Source: Acuticoccus sp. I52.16.1 (GTDB lineage: Bacteria; Pseudomonadota; Alphaproteobacteria; Rhizobiales; Amorphaceae). From it: a stretch of DNA of 64,000 nucleotides. Each line of letters begins with the position of its first letter. The first letter of the stretch is position 1. The stretch spans positions 2,659,219-2,723,218 of the forward strand of contig NZ_CP094828.1 in NCBI RefSeq assembly GCF_022865125.1. Direction: 5' to 3'. Shown piece by piece: positions 20,080 through 55,492 of the stretch. The translations under genes were made by a program, and so were the position numbers. A model generated the notes under the pieces. It was not told the origin of the DNA. It made no database searches and saw only the letters and a program-made list of their open reading frames with translations.

Positions 20080-21711
20080 TTACAGGTCGGCGCGGATGAG
20101 GTCGGCCGCCTTCTCGCCGACCATCAACGACGGCGCGTTGAGGTTGCCGGCGGTGATCGCGGGCATGATCGACGCGTCGGCGACCCGCAGGCCGGTGAGG
20201 CCGTGGACCTTCAGCGCCGGGTCGACCACCGCGCCGGCGGCTGCATCCGGTCCCATCGCGCAGGTGCCGCAGGGGTGGAAGACGGAGGTCGTGGTGGCAC
20301 GGATGTAGGCCACCAGGGCTCCGCGGTCGGTCACCTCGGGGCCCGGCGTCAGCTCCCGCTTGATGACGCGCTTCAACGGCGCCTGCTCGGCGATGCCGCG
20401 CATCAGCGCGACCGAGTCGATCAGCTCTTCGAGATCTTCGGGCTCGGAATAATAATGCGGGTGTATCTCCGGCGCCGCGGCGGGGTCGGCCGACCGGATG
20501 TGCAACCAGCCGCGGCTCTTGGGGTGGGTGTTGGAGATGCCGATCATGAAGCCGGGGAACCGGTCCGGCTGCGTCAGCCGGCGTTTGCCCGGCACCGCGC
20601 GGGTGTAGGAGAGCGGCGAGAAGTAGAGTTGCAGGTTCGGTCGCGCCCGCTCCGGACCGCCGCGCACGAACCCGCCGGCCTGGTTGACGCTGAGCGACAG
20701 CGGGCCGTCGCGCGTGGCGAGGTAGCGGATGCCGGCGAGGCCCCGCGCGAACAGGGGGCCGAGCGTCTGGTTCAGCGTCGGCACCGTGGCCTCGTAGAGG
20801 AGGTCGAAGCCGACGTGGTCCATCAGATTGCGGCCCACCGTCGGCGCGTCCAGCACCGGCGTGATGCCGAGGCCGGCGAGCTTGGCCGGATCGCCGACAC
20901 CGGAGAGCTGGAGGATCTGCGGCGAGCCGATGGCGCCGGCCGACAAGACCACCTCGCGCCGTGCCATGATGCGCCGCGTCGCGCCGCCCTTCACCACCTC
21001 GACGCCGATTGCGCGCGTGCCGTCGAAGAGGATCCGGGTGACCGCCGCGTCGGTGAGGAGGGTCAGGTTGCGCCGTTTCAGCGCCGGGTGGAGGTAGCCG
21101 GTCGCCGCCGAGCAGCGCAGGCCGTCGCGCGTGGTGACCTGGAAGAAGCCGACGCCCTCCTGGTCGGCCCCGTTGAAATCGGTGTTGCGGGTGAAGCCGG
21201 CCTGCACCGCCGCCTCGACGAAGGCGTGGGAGAGCGGGTGCGCCGCGGCGGCGACGTCACGCACGCTGATGGGGCCGTCGCCGCCGCGCCACTCGCTGGC
21301 GCCGGTGACGTTGCTCTCCAGCCGGCGGAAATATGGAAGCAGGTCGCGGTAGGACCAGCCGGGATTTCCGGCCGCGGCCCACCCGTCATAATCCGCCGCC
21401 TGGCCCCGGACGTAGACCATCGCGTTGATCGACGACGAGCCGCCGACGACCTTGCCGCGCGGCCAGTAGGCTTTGCGGCCCCCCAGGCCCTCGTCCGGCT
21501 CGGTGTAGTAGCGCCAGTTGAGCGTCGGATGGTAGAAGGCGCCGCCGTAGCCGATCGGCATCCGCACCCAGATGCTGCGGTCCGATCCGCCGGCCTCGAC
21601 GACGGTGACCGCGAGGTCGGCCCGCTCGGAAAGCCGTGCGGCGACGACGCAGCCGGCCGACCCGGCGCCCACCACGACGACGTCGCAATGATCGATCTGA
21701 GCGGCTTCCAC
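20080..21711 (-). CDS. GMC-family FAD oxidoreductase (choline/alcohol dehydrogenase type)
   Basis: 543 residues. The FAD-binding GAGSAG lies in VVVVGAGSAGCVVAARLSE (about 10-28), the GMC signature GGSSSINAMVYVRG near residue 90, and the active-site pair is a His in FHPCGTCAMG and an Asn in GNLNAPS near the C-terminus. Oxidises a primary or secondary alcohol. It starts with GTG at 21711 and is the last gene of the minus catabolic arm, with 172 bp of non-coding DNA between it and the cyclase gene. The substrate is unknown; choline is not implied by the context. Confidence 0.9.
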   Translation of the reverse strand: MEAAQIDHCDVVVVGAGSAGCVVAARLSERADLAVTVVEAGGSDRSIWVRMPIGYGGAFYHPTLNWRYYTEPDEGLGGRKAYWPRGKVVGGSSSINAMVYVRGQAADYDGWAAAGNPGWSYRDLLPYFRRLESNVTGASEWRGGDGPISVRDVAAAAHPLSHAFVEAAVQAGFTRNTDFNGADQEGVGFFQVTTRDGLRCSAATGYLHPALKRRNLTLLTDAAVTRILFDGTRAIGVEVVKGGATRRIMARREVVLSAGAIGSPQILQLSGVGDPAKLAGLGITPVLDAPTVGRNLMDHVGFDLLYEATVPTLNQTLGPLFARGLAGIRYLATRDGPLSLSVNQAGGFVRGGPERARPNLQLYFSPLSYTRAVPGKRRLTQPDRFPGFMIGISNTHPKSRGWLHIRSADPAAAPEIHPHYYSEPEDLEELIDSVALMRGIAEQAPLKRVIKRELTPGPEVTDRGALVAYIRATTTSVFHPCGTCAMGPDAAAGAVVDPALKVHGLTGLRVADASIMPAITAGNLNAPSLMVGEKAADLIRADL

Positions 21712-21883
21712 GGATCACCCCCGGTCCCGAACCTACCTCTCTCTAAGGCGCCGAGTGGACCCGTGTCGCCGACCATTCCCCTATGGGCGGGATACCAATC
21801 GGGTGGATGAACCGTGGGAGGGGCGGTGCCGGACAGGGCCGGGCGCGGCCTCGACCGCGCCGCATCCCTTCCGGGGGCGCCAG

Positions 21884-22900
21884 TCAGACGGTGGCGATCG
21901 GGGTGAGCGGAGAGCCGACCGAGCCGGGGAGGCGCAGCGGCGGGGCGGTCAGGAAGAAGGCCGACCGCTTCGCCTCGCGCAGCCACGCCGCGAGCTGCGC
22001 GTAGTACCACAGTTCGCCCAGGTGGATGCCGAGCTTGAAGAGGCAGTGGTTGTGGAGCGGCAGCGCCGGGTAACGCTCGCTGTCGGGCGTGCGCGCCGGG
22101 TAGGCCTCCACCGCGAAATTGTCGGCGCAGATCGCCGCGATGCCGCTGTCGGTGATGAAATTCAACAGCTTGTCGTCCCGCCCGTCGAGCGCGGCGCAGG
22201 ATGTGGCGAGGACGTCCGGATCGGGCTTTTTGTTCATCGACAGGATCAGGTCGGCGAAGCCGGTGTAGAGGCACAGGAAGTCGCCCGGCTCGATGGTGAC
22301 GTCCATTCCCTCCATCGCCCGCATCAGCCCGTCGTAGCCGACGGCGACGCGCTCTCGGCCGTGCAGGCGCTCGAGGTCGACCAGCACGCCGCGACCCTGG
22401 ACGCCCGTCGCGGCGAGGTTCTCGATGCCGAGCGCTTCGGCGCCGCGGGCCTCGCCGTCGTCGGGCCCGGTGATGTCCCGCCCGCCCTGGTAGCCGTTGT
22501 AGTAGACCTTCTCCGCGGTGCCGTCGCCGTCGACGTCGAACATCTGGCCGACGTGGGCGAGCGCGTCCCACTGCGTCGAATACTGGGTGTAGAGCGTCAC
22601 CGCGTCGTCGCTGACGATGTCGCAGTAGCAGGGTGAGACGCCGCTCATTTCGTAGTTGTAGTTGTGGCCCTCGCCGCGGCGCTCGTGGCGGAAGACCGGC
22701 TCGCGCCGCAGCGGCATCAGGACGTTGCCGCCCGGATAGTCGAGCGGCAGGGAGAGGCAGAAGGCGAGGCCCTCGCGGATCTCCTTCGCACCGCGCAGGC
22801 GCGCCTCGGGCGTGACGAGGTTCATCCGCCCGACCTGATCGTCGGGACCGAAGTCGCCCCAGTTGGATCCCTCCGGCCGGTGCGTCCAGCGCTTGTTCAT
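21884..22900 (-). CDS. Cyclase-family metal-dependent hydrolase (kynurenine-formamidase-like)
   Basis: 338 residues from ATG 22900, belonging to the long (about 330 aa) subgroup of the cyclase family. The metal-binding region reads W-D-A-L-A-H-V-G-Q-M-F-D (111-122). H116 and D122 match the usual H-x-G-T-H-x-D, but the second His is replaced by Met120. Family members open ring or amide bonds. The start overlaps the stop of the reductase gene upstream (ATGA). Within this CoA-ester pathway it could hydrolyse a lactone, lactam or formyl group. Confidence 0.8.
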   Translation of the reverse strand: MNKRWTHRPEGSNWGDFGPDDQVGRMNLVTPEARLRGAKEIREGLAFCLSLPLDYPGGNVLMPLRREPVFRHERRGEGHNYNYEMSGVSPCYCDIVSDDAVTLYTQYSTQWDALAHVGQMFDVDGDGTAEKVYYNGYQGGRDITGPDDGEARGAEALGIENLAATGVQGRGVLVDLERLHGRERVAVGYDGLMRAMEGMDVTIEPGDFLCLYTGFADLILSMNKKPDPDVLATSCAALDGRDDKLLNFITDSGIAAICADNFAVEAYPARTPDSERYPALPLHNHCLFKLGIHLGELWYYAQLAAWLREAKRSAFFLTAPPLRLPGSVGSPLTPIATV

Positions 22901-24006
22901 CGGTCTCTCCCCAGATGCGCCAGTTCTTCGCGGCTCGGCAGGATGCGGCGCGCCTGAAGCGCCGCGACGAGTTCGCGGAACATGGTCTCGGTGTCGGTGC
23001 AGGCGTGGAAGCCGGCCTGTCGCAGCTTGATCGTCGAGACGATCACCGGCGCCGGCGGGCGCTTGGCGCCGGTGGCGAAGACGAAGTCGGCATAGTGATG
23101 CGAGCGGCCCATGAGGGCGCCGAGGTCCGGCTCGGCGAGCCCCAGGCGGGTGGCGAGGGCGCGCCATTCCTCCGACCGCGGCGGCAGCGTATCGGCGAGC
23201 GAGCGCGGCGCGTCTGGGCCGGTGGCGGCACCCAGCGCCTCGGCGATCGCCGGCCACACGTTGCGCCACACGAACACGTCGCCGTTGGTGATGTTGAAGG
23301 TTTCGCCGCGCGCGCCCTCGGCGTCGGCGGCCCAGAGGAGCGCGCCCGCGACGAGGCGCGCGTCGACCGCCTCCAGCACGTAGTCCGGGCCGCCGGGGAA
23401 GGCGAGCGGGCGACCCTCGGCCGCCTCCAGTACCGCGAACGCGCCGATCACCGGGAGGATGTTCATCACCGCGCCCACCGCGTCGCCGAACACCACCTGC
23501 GGGCGCCAGACCGTGAGGTCGAAGCCGGTACGGGCGCCGAGGTCGCGGGCGAAGTCCTCCTGCAGCCAGTAGAAGTTGGCGTGGTCGTGGCGCGGCCAGC
23601 TCTCGCGCGCCGGCACCGGGAAGGGGCGGATGTGCACCCCGTAGGCCTTGGTGCCCTGGAACTGCGAGACGTGGCGCAGCGTGCCCGTCGCCGCCAGCGG
23701 CTCCAGGAGGTTGCGCAGCATGGCGAGGTTGGTCGCCATCTGCCGCTCCGAGCGCCAGCCGGTGACGAGGTCCGCCTCTTCGAAGACGGCCGCGTAGACG
23801 AGGTGCGTCGGCGCATCGAGCGCGGCGACCGCGGCGGCGCAGGCGGCCGCGTCGGTGAGGTCGACGGCGCGGTGGTCGTAGGCGCACGCCAGCGCCGGAT
23901 CGCGCCGCGACAGCGCCGTGACGCGCCAGCCGGCGGCGGCGAAGCGCTCCACCGCCGCGCGACCGATGACGCCCGACGCGCCGGCGATGAGGACGTGGCC
24001 GGGCAC
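22897..24006 (-). CDS. PRISE-like SDR reductase (progesterone 5-beta-reductase/iridoid synthase type)
   Basis: 369 residues. The Rossmann motif GASGVIG is at 9-15. Instead of the ordinary YxxxK, it carries the PRISE-type catalytic pieces: K120 in FQGTKAYG and Y146 in ANFYWLQEDF. PRISE enzymes reduce C=C bonds conjugated to a carbonyl. The GTG at 24006 is the start; the acyl-CoA dehydrogenase gene ends 4 bp away. It may reduce an enone intermediate in the surrounding pathway. Other SDR epimerase-type roles are possible. Confidence 0.75.
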   Translation of the reverse strand: MPGHVLIAGASGVIGRAAVERFAAAGWRVTALSRRDPALACAYDHRAVDLTDAAACAAAVAALDAPTHLVYAAVFEEADLVTGWRSERQMATNLAMLRNLLEPLAATGTLRHVSQFQGTKAYGVHIRPFPVPARESWPRHDHANFYWLQEDFARDLGARTGFDLTVWRPQVVFGDAVGAVMNILPVIGAFAVLEAAEGRPLAFPGGPDYVLEAVDARLVAGALLWAADAEGARGETFNITNGDVFVWRNVWPAIAEALGAATGPDAPRSLADTLPPRSEEWRALATRLGLAEPDLGALMGRSHHYADFVFATGAKRPPAPVIVSTIKLRQAGFHACTDTETMFRELVAALQARRILPSREELAHLGRDR

Positions 24007-24010
24007 CGCG

Positions 24011-25174
24011 TCAGGCCGCCCGCTGGTTGAACTGGCGACCGACCAGCCCGGCGGCGATGTTGACCTTCTGAATGTCGATCGCGCCGCCGGCGATGCCCCA
24101 GCCGAAGCTGTCGCGCACGCGGCGCTCCATGCCGTACTCGCGCGCGTAGCCGTAGCCGCCCATGAGCTGCATCGCCGCCGCCGTCACCTCGCGGGTGATC
24201 TCGTTGGCGAAGCACTTGGCCATCGCCGCCTCCTGCCGTTCGGGGAGGCCGGTGCCGGCGTTGGCGGCGGCGCGATGGATCATCAGCCGCGCCGCCTCGA
24301 CCTTCATCGCCATTTCGGCGAGGCGCAGCTGCACGGCCTGGAAGTCGGCGATCGGCTTGCCGAACTGGCGCCGCTCCTGGACGTAGCTTGTCACCACCTC
24401 CAGCGCCCCGGCGGCGACGCCGAGCGCCATGGTGGCGTTGCCCAGCCGCTCGATGTTGAAGAGGCCCATCAGCTTGGAGAAGCCGCCCGCTTCGACGAGG
24501 AGGTGCTCGCGCGGCACGCGCACGCCGTCGAACGCCATGTCCGCGGACGGGACGCCGCGAAAGCCCATCAGCTTCTCCTGCGCCCCGAACGACAGGCCGG
24601 GCGTGTCCTTGTCGACGAAGACGGCGCCGATGCCCTTGGCGCCCTTCGTGCCGTCGAACCGGCAGAAGACGACGTAACCCTCGCTGTGCCCCGCGCCGGA
24701 GCACCACCGCTTGGCGCCGTCGATGACGATGTCGTCTCCCTCGAAGCGGGCCTTCGTGGTGAGGTCGGTCAGTGCGGTGCCGGCGTCAGGCTCGGACATC
24801 GAGATCGCGACGAGCATTTCTCCGGCCGCCGCCTTGGGGACGACGCGGGCGGCAAGCTCGGGATGGCCGAGCGCCTCGACGATGCGCACCGGGCCGGCAC
24901 AGCACTCGAACACCGGGAAGCCGACGCCCACGGAGACCTTGGCGAACTCTTCCATGACGAGGAAGGCGTCGAGGTGCGGCAGGCCGAGGCCGCCGAACGC
25001 CTCGCGCGTGTTGACGCCGAGGAAGCCGAGCGCGGCATACTTGGCGAGCCAGGCGTGGGAGACGGGCTCCGCGGTCTCGTCGATCTCGATCGCGAGGGGG
25101 GCGAGTTCGGTCTGCGCGAAGCGGCGGGCGGTGTCCTGGAGGGCGCGCCGCTCGTCGGAGAGGATGAAGTTCAC
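24011..25174 (-). CDS. Acyl-CoA dehydrogenase
   Basis: 387 residues from GTG 25174, which overlaps the stop of the hydratase gene (GTGA). Three-domain acyl-CoA dehydrogenase: N-terminal helices, a middle beta domain (ISMSEPDAGTALTDL) and a C-terminal helical domain with ERRQFGKPIADFQAVQLRLAEM and MQLMGGYGYAREYGMER. Uses FAD to introduce a 2,3-double bond into an acyl-CoA and passes electrons to ETF. A second acyl-CoA dehydrogenase is encoded in the plus arm (34857), so the pathway may have two desaturation steps or a heteromeric enzyme. Confidence 0.93.
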   Translation of the reverse strand: MNFILSDERRALQDTARRFAQTELAPLAIEIDETAEPVSHAWLAKYAALGFLGVNTREAFGGLGLPHLDAFLVMEEFAKVSVGVGFPVFECCAGPVRIVEALGHPELAARVVPKAAAGEMLVAISMSEPDAGTALTDLTTKARFEGDDIVIDGAKRWCSGAGHSEGYVVFCRFDGTKGAKGIGAVFVDKDTPGLSFGAQEKLMGFRGVPSADMAFDGVRVPREHLLVEAGGFSKLMGLFNIERLGNATMALGVAAGALEVVTSYVQERRQFGKPIADFQAVQLRLAEMAMKVEAARLMIHRAAANAGTGLPERQEAAMAKCFANEITREVTAAAMQLMGGYGYAREYGMERRVRDSFGWGIAGGAIDIQKVNIAAGLVGRQFNQRAA

Positions 25175-26037
25175 GGGCGGGCCTCGTAGGTGAAGACGCC
25201 GTTCTTGAGGACGTCGGCGCCGCGCGCCTCGACGCGGGCGACGAACGCCGCCGTTCCCTCGCCGGTGCGCCAAAAATGGAAGGCGATGGTATCGCCGGGG
25301 AAGACGGGGGCCGAGAACCGCGCGCCGAGGCGCTTGACGCGGGCCGGTTCGTTGCCGGCGAGCTCGGCCATCAGCGCGCGGCAGGCGATGCCGAAGGTCG
25401 AGAGGCCGTGCAGGATCGGCCGCTCGAACCCGGCGCGGCGGGCGACGTCGGGGTCGGAGTGCAGCGGGTTGAGGTCGCCGGAGAGGCGGTAGACGAGGGC
25501 GAGCTGCCGCGGCGTCTCGATCTTGACCACGCCGTCCGGCGCACGGTCCGGCACCTCGGCGGCCGCGCGCTTGGCGTCCGGTGCGCCGCCGAAACCGCCG
25601 GCGCCGCGGCAGAAGACGGTGTGGCGCACGGTGGCGACGTGGGTCGCGCCATCGTAAAGCTCGCGCGCCGTCACCAGGAGCGCGCCCTTGCCGGCGCCCT
25701 TGTCGACGATCTCTTCGATCACCGTGCGGCCGGTCAGCGTCCCCTCGGGCGGAAGGGGAGCGAAAAGTTCCATCTCCTGCTCGCCGTGGACCACCTTCAG
25801 GTAGTCGATCCCGGTCGCCGGGTCGCGCAGCCAGGCGCCGTCGTAGCACAGCACGTTGACCATCGCGGGCATCGCCTGGATGCCCTGACCGGCGTCGAGG
25901 AACACGAGCTGGCCCTTGTCGGTCGGATCGTCGCCGTAGCCGAGGCCGAGGGCGTAGATCGCCGCGTCGCGCCAGGACCAGGTCTGCGTCACCTCGGCGA
26001 GGTCCAGCGCGCCGAGGTAGGCGGGGTCGAGCGGCAT
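25171..26037 (-). CDS. MaoC/hydratase-2-type enoyl-CoA hydratase (double hot-dog)
   Basis: 288 residues from ATG 26037. The C-terminal half carries the hydratase-2 motif Y183-R-L-S-G-D188-L-N-P-L-H193 followed by FERPILHGLSTFG, the Asp/His pair that hydrates 2-enoyl-CoA to the (R)-3-hydroxyacyl-CoA. The N-terminal half is a second, non-catalytic hot-dog, the layout of peroxisomal-type hydratase 2. Its start overlaps the SDR stop (TGATG). Pairs naturally with the following SDR as the second and third steps of an (R)-specific beta-oxidation. Confidence 0.9.
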   Translation of the reverse strand: MPLDPAYLGALDLAEVTQTWSWRDAAIYALGLGYGDDPTDKGQLVFLDAGQGIQAMPAMVNVLCYDGAWLRDPATGIDYLKVVHGEQEMELFAPLPPEGTLTGRTVIEEIVDKGAGKGALLVTARELYDGATHVATVRHTVFCRGAGGFGGAPDAKRAAAEVPDRAPDGVVKIETPRQLALVYRLSGDLNPLHSDPDVARRAGFERPILHGLSTFGIACRALMAELAGNEPARVKRLGARFSAPVFPGDTIAFHFWRTGEGTAAFVARVEARGADVLKNGVFTYEARP

Positions 26038-26951
26038 CAGACCGGATCCCACGAGATGACGTCGGCCGAGCGCTCCAGCGGGGTCAGGTGTGGCTTGAAC
26101 GCGCCGGGAAGGGTTTCGGCGAGCGTCTCGGCCGTCCAGCCCTCGCTGCGGTGGATCGAGCGGACGGGGCGCGGCTGGTTGAAGAGGTAGATCTCGTTGT
26201 TGCGGGCCGAGAAGATCTGGCCCGAGATGCCGGCCGCCGCGTCCGAGCCGAGGAAGGCGACCAGCGGCGCGATCTTCTCCGGCGTCATCCGCTTCAGCTT
26301 GGCGACGCGGTCCTTGTCGGCCTCCGTCTCGGTCGGGATCGAGGAGACCATGCGCGACCAGGCGAACGGGGCGATGCAGTTGGAGCGCACGTTGACGCGG
26401 GCCATGTCCATCGCGATCGCGCGTGACAGGCCGACGATGCCGAGCTTGGCCGCCATGTAGTTGGCCTGGCCGAAGTTGCCGATGAGCCCGGCGGTCGACG
26501 TCATGTGGACGTAGGCGCCGCTCTGCTTCTCGCGGAAATGGCCGGCGACGGCGCGCGAGACGTTGAACGAGCCGAAGAGGTGGACTTCCAGCACGGCGCG
26601 GAACTGGTCGGGGTCCATCTTGTGGAAGATGGCGTCGCGCAGGATTCCGGCGTTGTTCACCACCAGGTCGACGCCGCCGAAATGGTCCATCGCGGTGGCG
26701 ACGATGCGCTGCACGGCGTCCCACTCGGTGACGCTCTCGGCGCTCGCGACCGCCTCGCCGCCGGCGGCGCGGATGGCGCCGGCGACCTCTTCGGCGGCGC
26801 CGGCATTGTCGGCCTCGCCGGTCAGCGTCACGCCGATGTCGTTGACGACGACCCGCGCGCCGTCGGCGGCGAGCCCTTCGGCGATCGCGCGGCCGACGCC
26901 CTGCCCGGCGCCGGTGACGATCGCGGTCTTGCCTTCGAGTATTTTGCTCAT
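26037..26951 (-). CDS. SDR dehydrogenase, MFE-2-like (R)-3-hydroxyacyl-CoA dehydrogenase
   Basis: 304 residues, longer than a plain SDR. TGAGQGVG at 13-20, NNAG at 99-102, S152, Y165 and K169 (ANYMAAK) are all in place. The segment GFGRAIAEGL equivalent plus VVNDIG and the extended C-terminus match the dehydrogenase part of peroxisomal multifunctional enzyme type 2. It would oxidise the hydroxyacyl-CoA made by the adjoining hydratase. Gene order (thiolase-like, SDR, hydratase, dehydrogenase) supports one degradation route. Confidence 0.85.
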   Translation of the reverse strand: MSKILEGKTAIVTGAGQGVGRAIAEGLAADGARVVVNDIGVTLTGEADNAGAAEEVAGAIRAAGGEAVASAESVTEWDAVQRIVATAMDHFGGVDLVVNNAGILRDAIFHKMDPDQFRAVLEVHLFGSFNVSRAVAGHFREKQSGAYVHMTSTAGLIGNFGQANYMAAKLGIVGLSRAIAMDMARVNVRSNCIAPFAWSRMVSSIPTETEADKDRVAKLKRMTPEKIAPLVAFLGSDAAAGISGQIFSARNNEIYLFNQPRPVRSIHRSEGWTAETLAETLPGAFKPHLTPLERSADVISWDPV

Positions 26952-26972
26952 CGTTTCTCCTTGGGGGCGCGG

Positions 26973-29025: not shown

Positions 29026-29028
29026 GGC

Positions 29029-29840: not shown

Positions 29841-29856
29841 CATACTGATCGGTATG
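29841..29856. promoter_or_regulatory. Palindrome, candidate TetR operator, minus-arm promoter
   Basis: CATACTGATCGGTATG is a 16-bp near-perfect palindrome (one mismatched pair, T/C) 27 bp upstream of the enoyl-CoA hydratase ATG. On the minus strand a TTGAAA followed 16 bp later by TACCGA runs into it, so a bound protein would block this promoter. Confidence 0.6.
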
Positions 29857-31459: not shown

Positions 31460-31479
31460 GGCTCGGGCGAGACCCCGTC

Positions 31480-32259: not shown

Positions 32260-32999
32260 GCGTGGCGGCCGCGCCGGTCCTCGCCGTCGAGGGTCTCACC
32301 GCCGACTATGCCGGCAACCGCGCGCTCACCGTCGCCCGGCTGGCGCTGAGCGAGGGCGAGCTTCTGGGTGTCGTCGGCGCCAACGGGGCGGGCAAGTCGA
32401 CCCTCGTCGGGGCGATCCTCGGCTGGTCGCGCGGGGCGCCGCGCTATGCCGGCTCGGTGACGTTGGACGGGGAGGAGATCGCCGGGCTCGGCACGCCGAA
32501 GCGCGTGCGCCGCGGGCTGCTCTTGATCCCCGAAAGCCGGCTGATCTTCGGCACCATGACGGTGGCCGACAATCTCGCCCACGCGGCGAGCACCAACGAC
32601 GCCGGCGGACGGCGGATCTATTCGCTGGACGAGATCTACGACCTCTTCCCCAACCTCGCCAAGCGGCGCGGCCACCTCGGCAGTCAGCTTTCGGGCGGCG
32701 AGCGGCAGATGCTGGGGATCGCCCGCGCGCTGCGCCTCGCCCCGCGGGTGCTGCTCCTCGACGAGCCGTCCATCGGGCTGGCGCCCAAACTGGTGCACAC
32801 GGTGCTCGCAACGATCCGCGCTCTCGCCGACGACGGCCTCACCGTGCTCCTCATCGAGCAGAACGTGATGGCCGCCATCGAGGTCGTCGACCGCGTCGCC
32901 CTCCTGGAGCGGGGCCGCGTCGTCGCGGAGGGGACGGCGGCGGCGATGCGCACCGACCACCGCATCGCCGAGGCCTATCTCGGAGGGGCGGCGGCATGA
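32256..32999 (+). CDS. livF: Branched-chain-type ABC transporter ATP-binding protein LivF
   Basis: 247 residues. Walker A GANGAGKST, LSGGERQMLGIARAL signature, VLLLDEPSIGLAPKLV and LLIEQNVMAAIEV, which are diagnostic for LivF. Ends with AEAYLGG. Forms the ATPase heterodimer with LivG; its stop overlaps the livH start. Confidence 0.93.
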   Translation: MSVAAAPVLAVEGLTADYAGNRALTVARLALSEGELLGVVGANGAGKSTLVGAILGWSRGAPRYAGSVTLDGEEIAGLGTPKRVRRGLLLIPESRLIFGTMTVADNLAHAASTNDAGGRRIYSLDEIYDLFPNLAKRRGHLGSQLSGGERQMLGIARALRLAPRVLLLDEPSIGLAPKLVHTVLATIRALADDGLTVLLIEQNVMAAIEVVDRVALLERGRVVAEGTAAAMRTDHRIAEAYLGGAAA

Positions 33000-33862
33000 A
33001 CTTCGCCCAGCAGGTCATCAACGGCATCGTCCTCGGCCATGCCTACGCGCTGATCGCCATCGGCTGGACGGTGCTCCTCGGCGTCGCCCGGCTCGTCAAC
33101 TTCGGCCACGGGCAGATGTACATGGTCGGCGCCTTCGTCACCTGGTTCGCCATGACGACGCTCGGCATGCCCTACCTTGTCGCCATTCCCACCGCGATGA
33201 TCGTCGGCGTCGCGATCGGCTACGTCATGCAGCGCACCATGCTGCAGCTGACCCTGCGCCAGGATCTCGTCTCGGTCATGATCGTCACGCTCGGCTTCGG
33301 CTACATGCTGGAGGGTTCGGCGGCGCTGACCTTCGGCTCCACCGGCCAGATCCTCGACACTCCGCTGTCGCTGAAGGACATCTACATCGGCGACCTGTGG
33401 TTCACCTGGCAGGACGTCGCGATCGTCATCGTCACCATCGTCGTCTTCATCGCGCTGAAGATCGTCGTCGAGCACACGCACGTCGGCCGTCTGGTGCGCA
33501 TGGTGGCCGAGGACCCCAAGCTGGCGCTGCTCGCCGGGATCGACGTGAAGAAGGTCTACCTCGGCGTCTTCGCGTTCGAGGGGGCGGCGGTCGCGCTGGC
33601 GGCGGCGATGATCGCGCCCCGCACACCCATTCTCACCTCGATGGGCTTCGAGGAGGTCATCATCACGTTCGTCGTCGTCGTCATGGGCGGGATCGGCTCG
33701 GTCACCGGGTCGTACGTCGCCGGGCTGGGGCTCGGGCTCTTCTACGCCTTCTTCGGCGCGTACGTGTCGAGCGCCTACGCCACGGCGGCGATGTTCGTGG
33801 TGCTGATCGCGGTGCTCGTGCTGCGACCGGGCGGCCTCGCGGCACCGGCGGGAGGGCGCTGA
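32996..33862 (+). CDS. livH: Branched-chain-type ABC transporter permease LivH
   Basis: 288 residues with about eight membrane segments. Typical LivH text: QVINGIVLGHAYALIAIGWT at the start and LVNFGHGQMYMVGAF near residue 35. The coupling region VRMVAEDPKLALLAGIDVKKVY lies in the middle. Start overlaps livF by 4 bp. Confidence 0.92.
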   Translation: MNFAQQVINGIVLGHAYALIAIGWTVLLGVARLVNFGHGQMYMVGAFVTWFAMTTLGMPYLVAIPTAMIVGVAIGYVMQRTMLQLTLRQDLVSVMIVTLGFGYMLEGSAALTFGSTGQILDTPLSLKDIYIGDLWFTWQDVAIVIVTIVVFIALKIVVEHTHVGRLVRMVAEDPKLALLAGIDVKKVYLGVFAFEGAAVALAAAMIAPRTPILTSMGFEEVIITFVVVVMGGIGSVTGSYVAGLGLGLFYAFFGAYVSSAYATAAMFVVLIAVLVLRPGGLAAPAGGR

Positions 33863-33863
33863 G

Positions 33864-34850
33864 ATGAACGCAGCGCTTCAACTCGTCCTGTGGCCGGCGT
33901 TCGCGGTTCTCGCCTTCTTCGTGCCGGCGATCTTCGGCGGCTCGGGGGTCGTCTACTCGGCCTGCGTCGTCATCGCGATCTTCGCGGTGATGAGCTACGG
34001 GCTCGACGTCATCGTCGGCGATCTCGGCGAAGTCTCGCTCGCGCACCCGGTGTTCTTCGCCATCGGCGCCTATGTGACGGCGATGACGTCCTCGCAGCTC
34101 GGCGTCGGGCCGCTGGTCAGCCTCGCCGCCACCATCGCCTTCGCGCTGCTGGTCGCCGCCGGCATCGCGCTGGTGACGCTGCACCTGCGCGAGTTCGTCT
34201 TCTCCCTCGTCACCTACGCGGTGACGGTGGTGGCGATGACGGTGGCGGCCAACTGGTCCTTCATCGGCGGATCGGACGGGATCAGCGGCATCCCGGTCTT
34301 CTCCCTCTTCGGCTACACGGCCGGCACCGACGCCGAACTGTGGCCGATCGCCTGGGCGATGCTACTCGTGGCGATCTGGCTGGTGGCGGCCTTCCGCCGC
34401 TCGCGCCTCGGCCACGCGGCGATGACGGTGCACCTCAACCCGGCGCTGGCGACGATGTCGGGCATCTCGCCGGCGCGGGTGCGGATGCAGGTGTTCCTGT
34501 TCTCGGCGCCGATCACGGCGGCGGCCGGCTGGCTCTACGCCTACCAGCGCGCCTACGTCAGCGCCGACGTCCTCTCGATCTACTTCCTCATCCTGATGCT
34601 GACGGCGGTGGTGCTCGTCGGTCGGCGCATGTTGCTGGCGCCGCTCGCGGGCGTGGCCATCATCATCCTTCAGGAACGCTTCTTCTCCTGGGGCGCCTAT
34701 GTCGACCGGATCATTCTCGGCGGCGTCCTCGTCATCGTCCTTTCGTTCCTTCCGCGCGGGCTTGCGGGCCTGGTGATCGACGCCAGCCGCCTCCTCGATC
34801 GCGGCGGCGCGGCGCGCGTCGGAACGACCCCCGAACATGAGAAAGGTTGA
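33864..34850 (+). CDS. livM: Branched-chain-type ABC transporter permease LivM
   Basis: 328 residues with eight to nine membrane segments. The LivM motif appears as DVIVGDLGEVSLAHPVFFAIGAYVTA (about 50-75). The transmembrane core is followed by a basic C-terminal tail. One base separates it from livH. It completes the importer with LivGFH and the binding protein. Confidence 0.9.
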   Translation: MNAALQLVLWPAFAVLAFFVPAIFGGSGVVYSACVVIAIFAVMSYGLDVIVGDLGEVSLAHPVFFAIGAYVTAMTSSQLGVGPLVSLAATIAFALLVAAGIALVTLHLREFVFSLVTYAVTVVAMTVAANWSFIGGSDGISGIPVFSLFGYTAGTDAELWPIAWAMLLVAIWLVAAFRRSRLGHAAMTVHLNPALATMSGISPARVRMQVFLFSAPITAAAGWLYAYQRAYVSADVLSIYFLILMLTAVVLVGRRMLLAPLAGVAIIILQERFFSWGAYVDRIILGGVLVIVLSFLPRGLAGLVIDASRLLDRGGAARVGTTPEHEKG

Positions 34851-34856
34851 CCGCTG

Positions 34857-36032
34857 ATGTCCGTCATCTGGGACCCGCCGCTGGATGCGGCCGCCCGCCC
34901 GTGGGTCGAGACCGCGGCGCGCCTCACCGACACCGAGTTCGCCCCCCTGGCCGCCGAGCTCGATCGCGATCAGCGCTACCCCTGGGAGAGCATCAAGACG
35001 CTCGTCGACAGCGGCCTCGCCGGCATCTTCATCCCCAAGGAATACGGCGGCCAGGGCGCGCCGCTGACGACGACGGTCCGCGTCGTGGAGCGCGTCGGCG
35101 AAGGTTGCGCGTCGACCGCGGCGATCCTGTGCGCCTGCCAGCTCGGCGCCTTCCCGGTGCTGCTCGGCGGCACCGAGGCGCAGAAGAAGAAGTACCTCGG
35201 CGAGATGGCCGCGGGCACCGCCACCTCCTTCGCCCTGTCGGAGCGCTCCACCGGGTCGGACGCCGCGGCGATCACCGCGACCGCTGTGCGCGAGGGCGAC
35301 GGCTGGCGCATCCAGGGTGAGAAGTACTGGATCGGCAACGGCGGCGCCTCGCGCTACTACGTGGTCTTCGCCAAGACGGACCCCGCCGCCGGCGGCCGCG
35401 GCATCTCCGCCTTCATGGTCGACAAGGAGGCCGACGGCGTCGCGATCGACGAGCTGAACGACAAGATGGGCATCCGCGGCACGCAGACGTCCAATCTTCA
35501 GCTCGACACCTGGGTGCCGGCAGACGCGATGGTCGGCGAGGAGGGCCGCGCGCTGCGCCTCGCGCTCCAGACGCTCAACGTCGGGCGCATCATGGTCTCC
35601 GCCCAGTCCACCGGGCTGGCGCTGGCGGCCTACCGCGAAGGGGCCGCACGGGCGGTCGAGCGGCACACCTTCGGCAAGCCGATCATCGACAATCAAGGCA
35701 TCGGCTTCCGCCTGGCGGACGTGGCGACCGAGCTGTCGGCCGCGCGCATGATGCTCTACGAGGCGGCGCGGGCCTACGACGCGGGCGAGGACGTCGCCAA
35801 CCTCGGCGCGATGGCCAAGCTCTACACCTCCGAGGTGGCGCACAAGGCCGCCGATGCGGCGGTGCAGATCTGGGGCGGCTTCGGCTACGTGAAGCCGACG
35901 GTGGCCGAGCGGCTCTTCCGCGACCAGCGGATCCTCGAAATCTACGAGGGCACGTCCGAAATTCAGCGGCTTGTCCTGGCGCGCGCCATCAGGAAAGACG
36001 TCGAGACGGCTGCGGACCGCGCTGCCGCCTGA
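34857..36032 (+). CDS. Acyl-CoA dehydrogenase
   Basis: 391 residues. The middle domain has SFALSERSTGSDAAAITATA and the C-terminal domain RHTFGKPIIDNQGIGFRLADVA, then the substrate-contact stretch VQIWGGFGYVKPTVAERLFRDQRILEIYEGTSEIQRLV, in which the E-I-Y-E-G-T-S-E-I-Q region holds the usual catalytic Glu of short-chain and medium-chain enzymes. FAD-dependent desaturation of an acyl-CoA. Sits 6 bp after livM, so it belongs to the import operon. Confidence 0.95.
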   Translation: MSVIWDPPLDAAARPWVETAARLTDTEFAPLAAELDRDQRYPWESIKTLVDSGLAGIFIPKEYGGQGAPLTTTVRVVERVGEGCASTAAILCACQLGAFPVLLGGTEAQKKKYLGEMAAGTATSFALSERSTGSDAAAITATAVREGDGWRIQGEKYWIGNGGASRYYVVFAKTDPAAGGRGISAFMVDKEADGVAIDELNDKMGIRGTQTSNLQLDTWVPADAMVGEEGRALRLALQTLNVGRIMVSAQSTGLALAAYREGAARAVERHTFGKPIIDNQGIGFRLADVATELSAARMMLYEAARAYDAGEDVANLGAMAKLYTSEVAHKAADAAVQIWGGFGYVKPTVAERLFRDQRILEIYEGTSEIQRLVLARAIRKDVETAADRAAA

Positions 36033-36055
36033 CGATCCATGAACAGGGACTGGCG

Positions 36056-36712
36056 ATGACGGCGCACGACACCGATCCCGCGGGCGCGCGGGATCCTGCG
36101 GAAGACATCATCCGAGTTGCGGCCGAGCTCTTCATGAACTTCGGCTACGCCGCGACGTCGATCGACGCCATCGCCGCCAAGCTGGGCGCCACGAAAGGGC
36201 TCGTCTACCACCACTTCAAGAGCAAGTCGCATCTCTACTTCGAGATTCAGCGCACCGCGATGGCGCAGCTCTTCGAGGAGGTGGAACCGCATGCGCGGGC
36301 ACCCGGCCGCGCCGCCGACCGGCTGCGCGCCATGGCCCGCGTGCACCTGATGATGCTGCTGGAGGAGATGCCGGTCCAGAAGGTCGCCGTGCAGGGCCTC
36401 GAGCGGTACCTCTTCGAGGCGGAGGGCTTCCGGCACGCCAAGAGCCTCGCCGAGATCAACCGTCTGCGCGACCAGTACGAGCAGATGTTTGCCGAGGTGA
36501 TCGACCAGGGTGCCCGCGAGGGCGACTTCCTGGACCTGACGCCGCGGCTTCTCACCAAACCCTTCTTCGGCGCGCTCAACTGGGTGACCGTTTGGTACCG
36601 CCCGCGCCGCCTCCAGTCCGATGAAGACGTCGAAACCGTATGCGAGACCCTGGTGGAGTTCGCCATCAAAGGACTCCGCAGGGAGAAAGATAACAATGGG
36701 GACAACGCTTAA
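36056..36712 (+). CDS. TetR-family transcriptional repressor
   Basis: 218 residues. Helix-turn-helix at about 15-60: DIIRVAAELFMNFGYAATSIDAIAAKLGATKGLVYHHFKSK split over these positions. The C-terminal ligand domain is helical and ends GLRREKDN. It lies inside the import operon, between acyl-CoA dehydrogenase and CoA ligase; its last 17 bp overlap the ligase start. TetR proteins of such operons usually bind the CoA ester of the substrate. Candidate operators lie at 29841 and 29949. Confidence 0.93.
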   Translation: MTAHDTDPAGARDPAEDIIRVAAELFMNFGYAATSIDAIAAKLGATKGLVYHHFKSKSHLYFEIQRTAMAQLFEEVEPHARAPGRAADRLRAMARVHLMMLLEEMPVQKVAVQGLERYLFEAEGFRHAKSLAEINRLRDQYEQMFAEVIDQGAREGDFLDLTPRLLTKPFFGALNWVTVWYRPRRLQSDEDVETVCETLVEFAIKGLRREKDNNGDNA

Positions 36713-38030
36713 GGTTCCGTACTCCGATACGATCTGGGACGAGCGGGAGACCTGGTCGCGCGACCGGATCGCCGCCTTCCAGCACGAGGCGCTCGGCCGC
36801 CAGCTCGCCCGCGTCGGCGCGACCAGCGCACACTACGGCCGCGTCTTCGCCGAGGCGGGGTTCGACCCGCGCGACTTCAAGGGCGTCGAGGATCTCGCCA
36901 GGCTGCCCCTCACCAAGAAGGGCGACTACGTGAAGGGCCTCGCCGCCGACCCGCCCTTCGGCTCGTTCCGCGCGATCCCGATGGCGGATGCGGCACGCGT
37001 CCACTTCTCGTCCGGGACGACCTCGAAGCCCGCCCCGGTCCTTTGGAGCCACGACGACATCGAGCGATGGTCGGACCTCTACGCCCGATTCCTCTACGCC
37101 CAGGGCCTGCGGCGCGACGACGTCTTCCACTGCATGTTCGGCTATTCGTGGTTCGTCGGCGGGCTCGGCGCATCGCTGGCCGCGCAGCACCTGGGGGCGC
37201 TGGTGATCCCCGGCGGCTCGGTCGACACCGAGCGGCAGATCGACACCATCCTCGAATACGAGCCGCGCTGCGTCATCGGCACGCCGTCCTTCATGGCCCA
37301 CATCGCCGAGGCGGCAGCGCGGCGCGGGATCGACCTCGCGGCGTCGTCGGTGGAGATGGTGTGCGTCGGCGGCGAGCCGGGCGCGTCGATCCCCGGTACG
37401 CGCGAGCGGATCGAGCGGCAGTGGGGCGCCAAGATGTTCGACTGCTACGGCGCGCTGGAATGCCAGCCGATCGGCTGGGACACCGCGCTGCAGAACGGCC
37501 CGACGCTCGCCGAGGACTTCATCTACGTCGAGATCCTCGACCCCGACACCGACGCACCGGTCCCGGACGGCGCGCCCGGCGTCCTGGTGCTCACCCACCT
37601 CGACAAGGAAGCCTGCCCGCTGGTGCGCTGGTGGACCGGCGATATTGTCGTGCGCAACGCCGCCCCGGCTCCGGACGGGCGCACCCATGCGCGGCTCGAA
37701 GGCGGGGTGCGCGGGCGGGCGGACGACATGCTCATCGTGCGCGGCGTCAACCTCTTCCCCTCGGCGGTGGAGGACGTGGTGCGCGCCCATGCCGGCACGA
37801 CCAACGAGTACGCCATCGTCGTCGACGACACGATGAAGGACCCGGAGACTGGCTTCCTGAAGCGCGTCATGCTGCGGGTCGAGCGGGCGGACATCGACGA
37901 CGAGGCGCTGGGGGCGAGCCTCAAGCAGTGCCTGCGCGACAAGCTGAACGTATCGTTCGACATCGAGGTGCTGGACCCCGGCACGCTGCCGCGCACCGTC
38001 CACAAGGCCAAGCGCCTCCTGAGGGAGTGA
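36696..38030 (+). CDS. PaaK-like (phenylacetate-type) CoA ligase
   Basis: 444 residues from ATG 36696, preceded by GGGAGAAAG inside the TetR gene. ANL-superfamily adenylation motif VHFSSGTTSKPAPVLW (102-117), then FDCYGALECQPIGWD and the hinge region RWWTGDIV and RGRADDMLIVRGVNLFPSAVED, with the catalytic Lys expected near the C-terminus (HKAKRL). This is the phenylacetate-CoA ligase subgroup (short, about 440 aa). It activates a carboxylic acid with ATP and CoA, probably the imported one. Confidence 0.93.
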   Translation: MGTTLKVPYSDTIWDERETWSRDRIAAFQHEALGRQLARVGATSAHYGRVFAEAGFDPRDFKGVEDLARLPLTKKGDYVKGLAADPPFGSFRAIPMADAARVHFSSGTTSKPAPVLWSHDDIERWSDLYARFLYAQGLRRDDVFHCMFGYSWFVGGLGASLAAQHLGALVIPGGSVDTERQIDTILEYEPRCVIGTPSFMAHIAEAAARRGIDLAASSVEMVCVGGEPGASIPGTRERIERQWGAKMFDCYGALECQPIGWDTALQNGPTLAEDFIYVEILDPDTDAPVPDGAPGVLVLTHLDKEACPLVRWWTGDIVVRNAAPAPDGRTHARLEGGVRGRADDMLIVRGVNLFPSAVEDVVRAHAGTTNEYAIVVDDTMKDPETGFLKRVMLRVERADIDDEALGASLKQCLRDKLNVSFDIEVLDPGTLPRTVHKAKRLLRE

Positions 38031-38035
38031 GGCCG

Positions 38036-39133
38036 ATGCCCCCCACTCCCCTCGCCGGCAAGACCGTGGTCGAGTTCTCGCAGTTCATCGCCGGGCCGAC
38101 CGCGGCGCAGCTCCTGGCCGACTTCGGCGCCACCGTCCTGAAGGTGGAGCCGGCGCAGGGCGACGGGTCGCGCGCGCTCGCCGGCACCCGCCACGGCCCG
38201 GCCTACTTCCGCTGCTTCAACACCAACAAGGAGAGCGTCGTCGTCGACATGCGTGCGCCCGAAGGGGCGGCGCGGCTCGGCGAGATGCTGGCGGGTGCGG
38301 ACGCGTTGGTCTGCAACCTCGCCCCGGCGGGGTTGCGCAAACTGGCGCTCGGGCCGGACGACGTGCGCACCCGCTTCCCGCACCTCGTCGCCACCTACGT
38401 CTCCGGCTTCGGCCAGGACGACGACCGCACCTGCATGGACACCATCGCCCAGTGCGAAAGCGGCTTCGCGTGGATGAACGGCAACCTGGGCGGCGATCCG
38501 CGCATCTCCACGTCCTGGCCGGTCGACTTCTACAGCGGGCTCTACGCCGCGCTCTCCACCGCGATGGCGCTGTGCGATGCCAAGCGCGACGGCGGCATGG
38601 TGATCGACCTGACGATGATGGAGGTCGCCTCGGCGATGCTGCTGGCTCCTGCCGCCGTGTTGCTGGCGGAAGGGGCGGCGCTCGGCGCTCCGTCCGGCAA
38701 CCGCGACCGGGCCTCGGCGCCGTCGGGCGTCTACGCCTGCGCCGACGGGCACGTCTACATCTACGCCGGCCTCGACCCCTACTGGGCCGCGCTCCGTCCC
38801 GAGATCGACGGCGAGGACGCTCCCTTCGCCGAGCGCCTGGCCCGCGCCGACGCGTTCGACGCGATGGTCGAGCGATGGACGGGCGGACGCACGGTCGAGG
38901 CGGTGCTCGAGGCGCTGAAGCGGCTGCGCATCCCGGCCGGGAAGGTGCGCCAGCCGGCGGAGGCCCTTTCGATCATCGAGAATCTGCGGCCCGGCGGCGG
39001 CGTCATGCGGCAGCCGGGCGGGGAGGCGGTGCCGAGCTTCCCCGCGCTCTTCGACGGGGCGCGCATCCCCCGCCGCCCGGCACCGGCGCTCGGCGCCATC
39101 AACGACAACGCGACCGAAGGAAACGCGAGATGA
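38036..39133 (+). CDS. Class III (CaiB/BaiF) CoA-transferase
   Basis: 365 residues from ATG 38036 with a GAGGGAG ribosome site. Family start LAGKTVVEFSQFIAGPTAAQLLADFGATVLKVEP; the catalytic Asp lies in the region TCMDTIAQCESGF (about residues 130-140, where CaiB proteins carry Asp in a G-x-D motif). Length is at the short end of the family. Moves CoA between carboxylic acids. It overlaps the next SDR gene by 4 bp (ATGA). With the ligase gene just before it, the operon has two ways of activating an acid. Confidence 0.88.
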   Translation: MPPTPLAGKTVVEFSQFIAGPTAAQLLADFGATVLKVEPAQGDGSRALAGTRHGPAYFRCFNTNKESVVVDMRAPEGAARLGEMLAGADALVCNLAPAGLRKLALGPDDVRTRFPHLVATYVSGFGQDDDRTCMDTIAQCESGFAWMNGNLGGDPRISTSWPVDFYSGLYAALSTAMALCDAKRDGGMVIDLTMMEVASAMLLAPAAVLLAEGAALGAPSGNRDRASAPSGVYACADGHVYIYAGLDPYWAALRPEIDGEDAPFAERLARADAFDAMVERWTGGRTVEAVLEALKRLRIPAGKVRQPAEALSIIENLRPGGGVMRQPGGEAVPSFPALFDGARIPRRPAPALGAINDNATEGNAR

Positions 39134-39927
39134 CTACAGAGTTCGAGGTCCTGAGAGAGGACCTGTTTGCCGGCAAGGGCGCGGTCGTGTCGGGCGCGGG
39201 CACCGGGATCGGGCGCGCCATCGTGATGCGCCTCACCGCGCTCGGAATGAGCGTCACCGGCCTCGGCCGGCGCGAGGAGAAGCTGAAGGAGGTGGAAGCG
39301 GCGACCTCCGACATGCCCGGCTCGTTCCGCTGGAAAAGCGTCAACGTGCGGGAGACGGAGACGCTGGAGGGCGTGATCGCCGAAGCGGGCGAAGCGCACG
39401 GCATCGACCTTCTGGTGAACAACGCCGGCGGGCAGTTCTTCGCCCCCGCCACCAAGATCAGCCGGCGCGGCTGGGACGCGGTGATCGACCTCAACCTCTC
39501 CGCCGTCTTCACCGCCACCAAGGCCGCCTACCCCTATCTGAAATCGGCGCGCGGCGCGGTGGTCAACATGAGCCTCTCGGGCGTCGACCGCGGCTCGATG
39601 GGTCTCGCCCATTCGATCGCCGCGCGCGCCGGCGTGCTGGGCATGACGCGCTCGCTGGCGCTGGAGTGGGCGGCGGACGGGATCCGTCTCAACTGCATGG
39701 GCCCCGGCACGGTGGTGACGTCCGGCCTGTCGGACGAGGCGGCCAAGGCACTCCTCGACGGGCTCGTGGCGGCGACGCCGATGCACCAGGACACCAGCGT
39801 CGAGGAGGTGGCGGAGCTGACGGCCTTCCTGGCGAGCCCCGCCGCCCGGCTGATGACGGGCCAGCTCATCCAGATCGACGGTGGCGCCCACATCGGCGCG
39901 GGCCTGCACATGCTGGACGCCGCCTGA
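39130..39927 (+). CDS. PECR-like SDR (2-enoyl-CoA / 2,4-dienoyl-CoA reductase type)
   Basis: 265 residues. SGAGTGIG (21-28) and LVNNAGGQF (95-103) identify the SDR subgroup of peroxisomal trans-2-enoyl-CoA reductase. As in that subgroup, the standard catalytic Y-x-x-x-K is absent: the equivalent stretch is H161-S-I-A-A-R166-A-G, close to PECR's H-S-G-A-A-R-A-G. The likely reaction is NADPH-dependent reduction of a C=C bond in an unsaturated acyl-CoA. Last gene of the plus arm. Confidence 0.85.
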   Translation: MTTEFEVLREDLFAGKGAVVSGAGTGIGRAIVMRLTALGMSVTGLGRREEKLKEVEAATSDMPGSFRWKSVNVRETETLEGVIAEAGEAHGIDLLVNNAGGQFFAPATKISRRGWDAVIDLNLSAVFTATKAAYPYLKSARGAVVNMSLSGVDRGSMGLAHSIAARAGVLGMTRSLALEWAADGIRLNCMGPGTVVTSGLSDEAAKALLDGLVAATPMHQDTSVEEVAELTAFLASPAARLMTGQLIQIDGGAHIGAGLHMLDAA

Positions 39928-55481: not shown

Positions 55482-55492
55482 TCCCGCGATCC

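Follow-up and report, generated by a model that had tools for sequence, protein, structure and literature searches.

A divergent gene cluster of Acuticoccus sp. I52.16.1 predicted to use an organic acid through a retro-aldol step

The closest described counterparts of the gene cluster studied here are the retro-aldolase pairs Ltp2-ChsH2 and Sal-Shy, the benzoylsuccinyl-CoA thiolase BbsAB (CoA, coenzyme A) with its bbs operon, the PRISE reductases and, by reaction alone, the (1-hydroxycyclohexan-1-yl)acetyl-CoA lyase, EC 4.1.3.35. The bbs operon contains a DUF35 and thiolase-fold pair, a class III CoA-transferase, an acyl-CoA dehydrogenase (ACAD), a hydratase and short-chain dehydrogenases/reductases (SDRs). 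We know of no sequence for the EC 4.1.3.35 lyase, and no paper that ties genes to it was found in our literature search. Ltp2 is described as using the Tyr of a YDHF motif and Tyr344 in catalysis, while Sal uses the Tyr and Cys of a YDCY motif and has a Gly at the place of the thiolase nucleophile (PMC12329534). When hydration yields a tertiary alcohol, oxidation is described as impossible in the next step, an aldolase cleaving the product in its place (PMC11321319). Here, we analyse a window of 64,000 nucleotides from Acuticoccus sp. I52.16.1 (contig NZ_CP094828.1, positions 2,659,219 to 2,723,218), with a G+C content of 70.1%, in which twenty genes, g22-g41, lie in two divergent arms at 20080-39927. 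On balance, we read the cluster as one horizontally mobile regulon that would allow an organic acid to serve as a carbon source via a retro-aldol step.

The cluster shares with Ltp2-ChsH2 and Sal-Shy a MaoC hydratase, a DUF35 protein and a thiolase-fold protein that lacks the nucleophilic Cys and has the catalytic Tyr in a YDxF motif. It differs from them in that the DUF35 protein is free-standing, the third motif residue is Ala rather than His or Cys, and the Tyr344 of Ltp2 is not conserved. It also differs in having a LivK importer and TetR control, and the HsaA model stays below its cut-off in 17/17 carrier genomes. All of the bbs gene types listed above are present here too, but BbsB has a Cys (SACSAG) and an HDAF motif, and the thiolase-fold protein g28 has neither. 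The reductase g24 aligns with the PRISE reductases over most of its length and conserves their Lys and Tyr segments, but is tied to a CoA pathway. The likeness to EC 4.1.3.35 lies in the predicted reaction type, in which a tertiary beta-hydroxyacyl-CoA gives a cyclic ketone and acetyl-CoA.

The genes were called by codon usage, and their products were checked by Pfam and NCBIfam profile searches. Gene by gene, these bore out the twenty genes, two divergent arms and functions listed in a preliminary description made from the sequence alone. The minus arm consists of ten genes (g22-g31, 20080-29814) and the plus arm of another ten (g32-g41, 30305-39927), separated by a divergent region of 490 bp between 29814 and 30305. 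All five subunits of a LivKGFHM-type importer are encoded in one operon (g32-g36). The features are as follows:

20080-21711, minus strand: g22, GMC oxidoreductase (GMC_oxred_N/C), adjoining the cluster and probably outside its conserved core
21884-22900, minus strand: g23, cyclase-family (PF04199) metal-hydrolase-like protein (Pfam; PDB relative 5ibz, uncharacterised)
22897-24006, minus strand: g24, PRISE-like reductase, presumed enone reductase (Epimerase-fold SDR; PDB relatives; Lys and Tyr motifs)
24011-25174, minus strand: g25, ACAD with a displaced catalytic Glu (Pfam; alignment)
25171-26037, minus strand: g26, two-domain MaoC enoyl-CoA hydratase of the hydratase-2 type (Pfam; D..H segment)
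26037-26951, minus strand: g27, SDR dehydrogenase (Pfam and NCBIfam; 3-oxoacyl-ACP reductase models)
26973-28151, minus strand: g28, thiolase-fold protein, predicted retro-aldolase (PRK06158 model; YDAF, no nucleophile Cys)
28148-28531, minus strand: g29, DUF35 protein (zf-ChsH2 and OB_ChsH2), presumed partner of g28 (Pfam)
28528-29025, minus strand: g30, truncated, presumably inert crotonase-fold protein of 165 amino acids (no Pfam match; predicted structure)
29029-29814, minus strand: g31, crotonase (enoyl-CoA hydratase; Pfam and NCBIfam; GGGCE and PEI segments)
29841-29856, no strand: candidate operator 1, CATACTGATCGGTATG, 26 bp before g31, perfect palindrome match
29949-29964, no strand: candidate operator 2, CATACTCGTCGGTACG, one mismatch, downstream of a TTGAC -35-like element
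30305-31459, plus strand: g32, LivK-type substrate-binding protein (Peripla_BP_6)
31480-32259, plus strand: g33, LivG ATPase (Pfam and NCBIfam)
32256-32999, plus strand: g34, LivF ATPase (Pfam and NCBIfam)
32996-33862, plus strand: g35, LivH permease (Pfam and NCBIfam)
33864-34850, plus strand: g36, LivM permease (Pfam and NCBIfam)
34857-36032, plus strand: g37, ACAD with the standard YEG.SE segment (Pfam and NCBIfam; segment in 24/24 rows)
36056-36712, plus strand: g38, TetR repressor (TetR_N at residues 18-64 and TetR_C_24; the start at 36056 retains the whole helix-turn-helix)
36696-38030, plus strand: g39, PaaK-like acyl-CoA ligase, used as the cluster marker (Pfam and NCBIfam)
38036-39133, plus strand: g40, class III CoA-transferase (Pfam and NCBIfam)
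39130-39927, plus strand: g41, SDR, 2,4-dienoyl-CoA-reductase/PECR-like (Pfam and NCBIfam)

The prediction of a retro-aldol step comes from g28. The protein passes the PRK06158 model with 605.5 against 421 bits, and the NCBIfam name of this model is acetyl-CoA acetyltransferase. The best match among PDB structures is the uncharacterised “thiolase” 4u4e (366 bits), followed by 9myr (Sal-Shy, 173 bits) and 6ok1 (Ltp2, 167 bits), and below these by the acetyl-CoA acetyltransferase 7yvy (137 bits), BbsB (7pxp, 136 bits) and SCP2-thiolases (102 bits). The YDHF Tyr of 6ok1, which we take to be the T. curvata Ltp2, counts to 294 in the alignment, as in PMC12329534. We aligned 39 rows, one for the window and 38 from a set of 39 loci, of which L041 proved too short; L029 and L064 represent the same gene. 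Thirteen of the rows (L008, L030, L032-L040, L042 and L043) come from loci without the rest of the cluster. All 39 contain the YDAF motif, and none contains a Cys at the nucleophile segment. In a set of 48 rows, the corresponding columns read CA[ST]G and HDxx in three real thiolases from the loci read, and YDAF or YDSF in four distant paralogues. Of the latter, two from the genome of the strain itself (L002 and L003) carry a Cys immediately after the nucleophile place, one column further on, and another paralogue from that genome (L004) has one two columns before it; the lack of Cys is clear for the g28 clade only. The Cys of BbsB aligns to a Met in g28 (phmmer) and the Cys of the three thiolases to a Gly (MAFFT), and g28 is Cys-less in both alignments.

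Accordingly, g28 lacks the nucleophilic Cys by which an acetyl-CoA acetyltransferase would be recognised, and it combines this absence with the other features of the Ltp2 and Sal type, namely the catalytic-base Tyr in YDxF/YDxY and an adjacent DUF35 gene, g29. Because YDAF and the absence of the Cys in all 39 rows are as in Ltp2 and Sal, retro-aldol cleavage is likelier than thiolysis for this protein, and by analogy g28 may work like these retro-aldolases, with g29 as its presumed partner. The thiolase-fold protein with DUF35 of the preliminary description is thus confirmed in its fold and its DUF35 partner, while a thiolase-type active site was not found, the residues being of the aldolase type. 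BbsB of the benzylsuccinate pathway was also tried as an assignment for g28 and was rejected at 150.2 against a cut-off of 750 bits.

The TetR protein g38 is very probably the repressor of both arms, because a 16-bp palindrome, CATACYNNNNRGTATG, recurs in the divergent promoters, precedes the cyclase gene where this is inverted, and co-occurs with g38 in diverged clusters. Two copies with at most two mismatches are present in 23/23 divergent promoter regions, including that of the window, as compared to 0.57 loci expected from a generated first-order Markov background, which is not an exact dinucleotide shuffle. These 23 loci leave out L027 and L041, which have no importer side, and Aquibaculum L029, which has another arrangement and two palindromes at one mismatch. 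A TTGAC element was read by eye just upstream of the importer-side palindrome in 23/23 regions; the palindrome therefore falls on the spacer and -10 region, where repressors commonly bind. Since the pattern was derived from the very sequences that had brought it to notice, the independent support comes from the inverted cyclase gene, a whole-genome scan and the diverged clusters. The 400 bp before the inverted cyclase gene contain the palindrome with zero or one mismatch in 9/9 loci, as compared to 0/15 where the cyclase gene sits inside the arm. In the genome of the strain itself, operator 1 is the sole perfect match, and a scan allowing one mismatch gave four sites per strand, two of which are those of the cluster, versus five for a reversed control, which is the background level. 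A third match in the window, at 13465 with two mismatches, is also at the level of chance (0.9 expected). Diverged clusters with a g38 relative (L109, L110, L115 and L112) have the palindrome just before g37 at 0, 1, 1 and 2 mismatches, respectively, and those without g38 (L111, L113 and L114) have none at the cluster. Stray matches with two mismatches were seen inside g41 in L115, as a second match, and inside an unrelated gene in L114. The candidate operator is thus shared by the cluster promoters and does not occur elsewhere above background, consistent with one regulon under g38.

To delimit the cluster, we used g28 as a probe, which gave 33 loci in named genomes, and opened five plasmid records besides. 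The order and orientation of g23-g29 and g31-g39 are kept in 15 alpha-type loci, at 52-86% identity. These are from a plasmid of Rhizobium sp. SSA_523, Anianabacter, Pelagivirga, six Microvirga, a locus titled Oceanobacillus sp. HTM 045, Roseibium, two Bosea, Limibaculum and Thermohalobaculum. The circular Rhizobium record begins within the cluster and divides it between L007 and L051, so that g39-g41 are found at the other end (L051). Two copies of g32 are present in L016, and g30 is in place in 15/15 of these loci, in two of them (L012 and L015) as an open frame that was seen only on translation. The core genes are thus not unlinked in relatives; unlinked genes were what the preliminary description had named as speaking against it. 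Its view of one dedicated unit with importer, CoA activation, chain shortening and its own repressor is upheld by this synteny and by the palindrome counts (23/23 and 9/9).

A rearranged beta form, found in the betaproteobacteria Variovorax (VAI-C plasmid), Achromobacter, Bordetella hinzii, Aquincola and Hydrogenophaga, lacks g25, g27 and g30, contains another SDR and has the cyclase gene inverted; four of the loci add a CoA-transferase and a quinone-reductase-like enzyme. Ten of the 33 loci (L030 and L032-L040) encode g28 and g29 at about 60% and 40-45% identity and otherwise contain other gene sets, with a g25 relative at 62-65% in four of them. The cyclase g23 is 69-79% identical across alpha- and beta-type loci, and 60% in L029. 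The genes g40 and g41 follow g39 in 16/17 right-arm stretches read, the exception being Aquibaculum L064. A second class III CoA-transferase is located right after g41 in 13 of these stretches, after g39 in L064 and nearby in two, and is missing in one. The cluster in the window does not contain it, and its best relative in the same genome is 68% identical and 2.5 Mb distant. The GMC oxidase g22, which had been counted as a member of the set, was not found in any of the 12 relative loci whose sequence extends past g23, and no operator is present in the 400 bp scanned upstream of it.

The ligase g39 was used as the marker of the cluster in genome samples (E up to 1e-120), with the genome of the strain counted in every sample. 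Across the 18 carriers in which it was searched, identity is 62-82% for the copy in the cluster and 39% for the next best copy. The marker was identified in no other of 61 relatives (0/7 congeners), in 9/385 genomes of a class sample and in 2/398 genomes of a phylum sample. Among the nine carriers in the class sample, the strain itself and G175 (62%) have a cluster of the kind described here, while the other seven (55-58% identical) have diverged, smaller clusters. The smallest of these relatives (L111, L113 and L114) consist of the cyclase g23, an SDR, the ACAD g37 and the ligase g39 beside hydrolases, to which L111 adds a molybdenum hydroxylase large subunit. In L112, the aldolase arm is accompanied by g37, g38, g39 and g41, and the 20 kb read contain no cyclase. 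The patchy distribution, the identity of up to 77% between the window and betaproteobacterial copies and the location of the cluster on two large plasmid records point to horizontal transfer.

We propose the following pathway. The repressor g38 would bind the palindrome and repress both arms until the acid or its CoA ester releases it. The acid would be imported by LivK-GFHM and converted to a CoA ester by the PaaK-like ligase g39, while g40, together with the second CoA-transferase in most relatives, would pass CoA between intermediates. The ACAD g37 would then put in the alpha,beta double bond, water would be added at the beta carbon by the MaoC hydratase g26, and g28-g29 would split the beta-hydroxyacyl-CoA by a retro-aldol reaction into acetyl- or propionyl-CoA and a carbonyl compound, as Ltp2-ChsH2 and Sal-Shy do. 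The ketone or ring may be processed by g24, the SDRs g27 and g41, the cyclase g23, and the crotonase g31 with its presumably inert partner g30.

Our best guess, held with moderate confidence, is that the substrate is beta-branched or cyclic at the beta carbon, such as a cycloalkyl-acetic acid, and that the carbonyl product is a ketone. This is because profile searches identified no aldehyde dehydrogenase among the 20 genes, nor is one part of the conserved set, and because of a Glu in g25. In this ACAD, the Glu of the YEGT place is kept in 0/19 rows (Gly in the alignment), and a Glu is instead present in N[IL]ER/DLER in 19/19 rows (NIER in the window). The NIER position is, we presume, the place of the catalytic base in isovaleryl-CoA dehydrogenase, an enzyme of beta-branched acyl groups. 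For the aldolase cleavage of a tertiary alcohol, the step expected with such a substrate, there is a precedent (PMC11321319).

Several observations weigh against this proposal or parts of it. An aldehyde dehydrogenase gene adjoins the Variovorax cluster and another lies in the window at 15406-16893, 3 kb outside the cluster, so that the product may be an aldehyde. The beta form has neither g25 nor g27, and the argument from the Glu of g25 does not cover it. Neither Tyr344 of Ltp2 nor Cys304 of Sal, the second catalytic residue in each case, is conserved in g28, which has an Ala at the Cys304 place and a Gly aligned to Tyr344, two residues before a conserved Tyr; we therefore place g28 in neither the Ltp2 nor the Sal clade. 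It also keeps a His of the thiolase HP type in 39/39 rows, and at least 3 of 34 DUF35 rows (20 rows displayed) lack the second Cys pair. The palindrome of L112 appears only at two mismatches. Finally, g27 matches 3-oxoacyl-ACP reductase models and could make a 3-oxoacyl-CoA, which would suit beta-oxidation with thiolysis.

The last point leads to the most serious competing explanation, in which the cluster is a conventional beta-oxidation island for an ordinary aromatic or medium-chain acid, for example a phenylpropanoid, with g28 as the thiolase and g27 as the source of the 3-oxoacyl-CoA. Liv importers of the p-coumarate type are known, the cluster has everything that a classical cycle needs (ACADs, hydratases, the SDR g27 and a thiolase fold), the ligase is PaaK-like, and the model passed by g28 bears the name acetyl-CoA acetyltransferase. 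But g28 has YDAF and no nucleophile Cys in 39/39 rows, whereas the three thiolases in the loci read keep their Cys; a classical cycle offers no role for g24, g23 and g30, and there is no ring oxygenase among the 20 genes, so that we judge this explanation unlikely, while granting it real weight. It is considerably less probable that the process begins with a cyclic precursor, a lactone or cyclic ketone opened by g23, after which g39 would activate the open-chain acid and g37 dehydrogenate it, the aldolase arm being a later add-on. The small clusters L111, L113 and L114, with their g23, SDR, g37 and g39 next to hydrolases and, in L111, the molybdenum hydroxylase large subunit, speak for such a history. 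However, the aldolase arm of L112 without a cyclase in the 20 kb read implies that the two modules combine freely, and PF04199 spans many reactions.

We consider it highly improbable that the cluster is a side-chain module for steroids or bile acids in a steroid-degrading organism. The enzyme logic resembles ChsE-ChsH1H2-Ltp2 and Shy-Sal, and 3-oxo-4,5-steroid 5-beta-reductase is among the PRISE relatives of g24. The importer is of the LivK type, however, no steroid ring gene occurs among the 20, and HsaA, the sole ring marker searched, exceeds its curated cut-off (450 bits) in 0/17 carrier genomes. Steroid degradation was rejected as the leading explanation on this result. The partial likeness to steroid side-chain breakdown suggested earlier thus holds for the ACAD, the MaoC hydratase, DUF35 and the Cys-less YDxF thiolase fold, and fails for a steroid substrate. 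Matches to HsaA below the cut-off reach 334 bits in Bordetella hinzii (G014) and 233 bits in the genome of the strain. The latter genome contains two HsaA-like monooxygenase relatives close together, at C1:2306725-2307840 and C1:2304569-2305693, with 233 and 221 bits.

Under the retro-aldol proposal, the cluster is a sharply bounded, mobile catabolic regulon with g39 as a sequence marker and an operator usable as a reporter, and its predicted aldolase chemistry is not part of steroid degradation. The proposal further suggests that some genes currently annotated as acetyl-CoA acetyltransferase encode aldolases; for many bacteria of soil and sea, this would alter the pathways predicted. A bolder version, which we offer tentatively and regard as rather doubtful, is that natural acids of the cycloalkyl-acetic or beta-branched kind are degraded by a retro-aldolase pathway unrelated to steroids, for which the cluster would provide the first genetic basis. 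The g28-g29 pair would then be a third catalytic type of thiolase-fold aldolase, with YDAF and a retained His, converting a tertiary beta-hydroxyacyl-CoA, supplied by the ligase, the ACAD and the MaoC hydratase, to a ketone and acetyl-CoA. If so, a jasmonate-like 3-oxocyclopentyl-acetic acid would yield a cyclic 1,3-dione that could be opened by g23 or by g31-g30, a crotonase paired with a dedicated inert protein, and the name “acetyl-CoA acetyltransferase” would be wrong for much of the PRK06158 family. No match to the cluster, to jasmonate or cyclohexylacetate catabolism or to related gene sets was seen in titles and the starts of abstracts in the open-access literature, which leaves absence in print unproven.

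The PDB relatives of g24 are progesterone 5-beta-reductases and iridoid synthase, and KAYG and NFY are both present in 26/26 rows. With this sequence relation and these Lys and Tyr motifs, which we presume to hold the PRISE catalytic residues, g24 can be classified as a PRISE reductase. The genomic neighbourhoods of PRISE genes were tried as a clue to the substrate and set aside, the cluster being present only in L101 among the 19 loci opened (18 of the 23 other class-sample genomes with a match, and one paralogue from the same genome). Bacterial VEP1 is described as having spread by lateral transfer (PMC3144213). Two domains of the MaoC type are present in the hydratase g26, the C-terminal one showing the D..H segment in the 26 rows displayed of 29, the same arrangement as in steroid hydratases described with an inert partner domain (PMC11321319). 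The ligase g39 falls far short of the model for PaaK of the phenylacetate pathway (305.7 versus a cut-off of 646.3 bits), which was rejected as an assignment.

The crotonase g31 contains GGGCE and PEI in 16/16 rows, and both catalytic Glu are present at what we take to be the positions of the enoyl-CoA hydratase Glu pair. Its neighbour g30, for which the preliminary description named no product, has no Pfam match of its own, and 2/14 family members touch ECH_1 (best E 0.069). An AlphaFold2 model of g30 (pLDDT 89.2, pTM 0.80) was compared to the PDB with Foldseek. The best 50 of 77 matches with E <=0.001 are chains of the crotonase superfamily (best E 1.2e-05, query TM 0.49-0.66), the membership being taken from the title for some and presumed by us for others. 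The family is 165-198 amino acids long (135 as called in L014), the Glu-bearing segments of g31 were not seen by eye in the g30 alignment, so that the Glu pair of a crotonase enzyme is missing, and dN/dS values (nonsynonymous to synonymous substitution rates) of about 0.21-0.34 in four pairs indicate fast evolution under purifying selection. The simplest reading of the modelled fold is that g30 is a truncated, inert crotonase-fold partner of g31.

On one side, the cluster is flanked by a GntR/aminotransferase-type regulator and by a protein of 149 amino acids that matches no Pfam family, and on the other by an RTX-repeat protein. Neither Rfam, at gathering scores, nor a tRNA scan gave a match in the window. 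At 54279-61419, 14 kb downstream of the cluster, lies another LivK-HMGF-type importer (LivK confirmed by profile), accompanied by SDR and dehydrogenase-like genes; the palindrome is not present there at up to two mismatches. At the start of the window (203-5763), an operon for a tripartite ATP-independent periplasmic (TRAP) transporter, an SDR and a split transketolase (g2-g7) has a homolog on the Rhizobium sp. SSA_523 plasmid (L051:1646-7169; 47-87% identity). Since 2.5 kb separate this homolog from the second CoA-transferase belonging to the cluster on that plasmid, the operon and the acid cluster may travel or work together.

The locus titled Oceanobacillus sp. HTM 045 (L013) has a full alpha-type cluster and a G+C content of 68.4%, and the record is probably mislabelled or contaminated. 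In L110:11438-14688 and L115:11650-14877, the diverged g37-g38-g39 clusters are followed by genes for an NMT1-type binding protein, a lyase of the phosphoenolpyruvate mutase/isocitrate lyase type and an aconitase-type large subunit, and then, in L110, by a gene for 171 amino acids without a Pfam match. The first three of these genes perhaps feed a released acid to g39. Between operator 2 and g32, at 29989-30174, a short open reading frame of 61 codons was read by eye. It begins behind a copy of GGGAGGACGA, a sequence that also precedes g32, and may be a remnant or a leader, given the two copies of g32 in some relatives.

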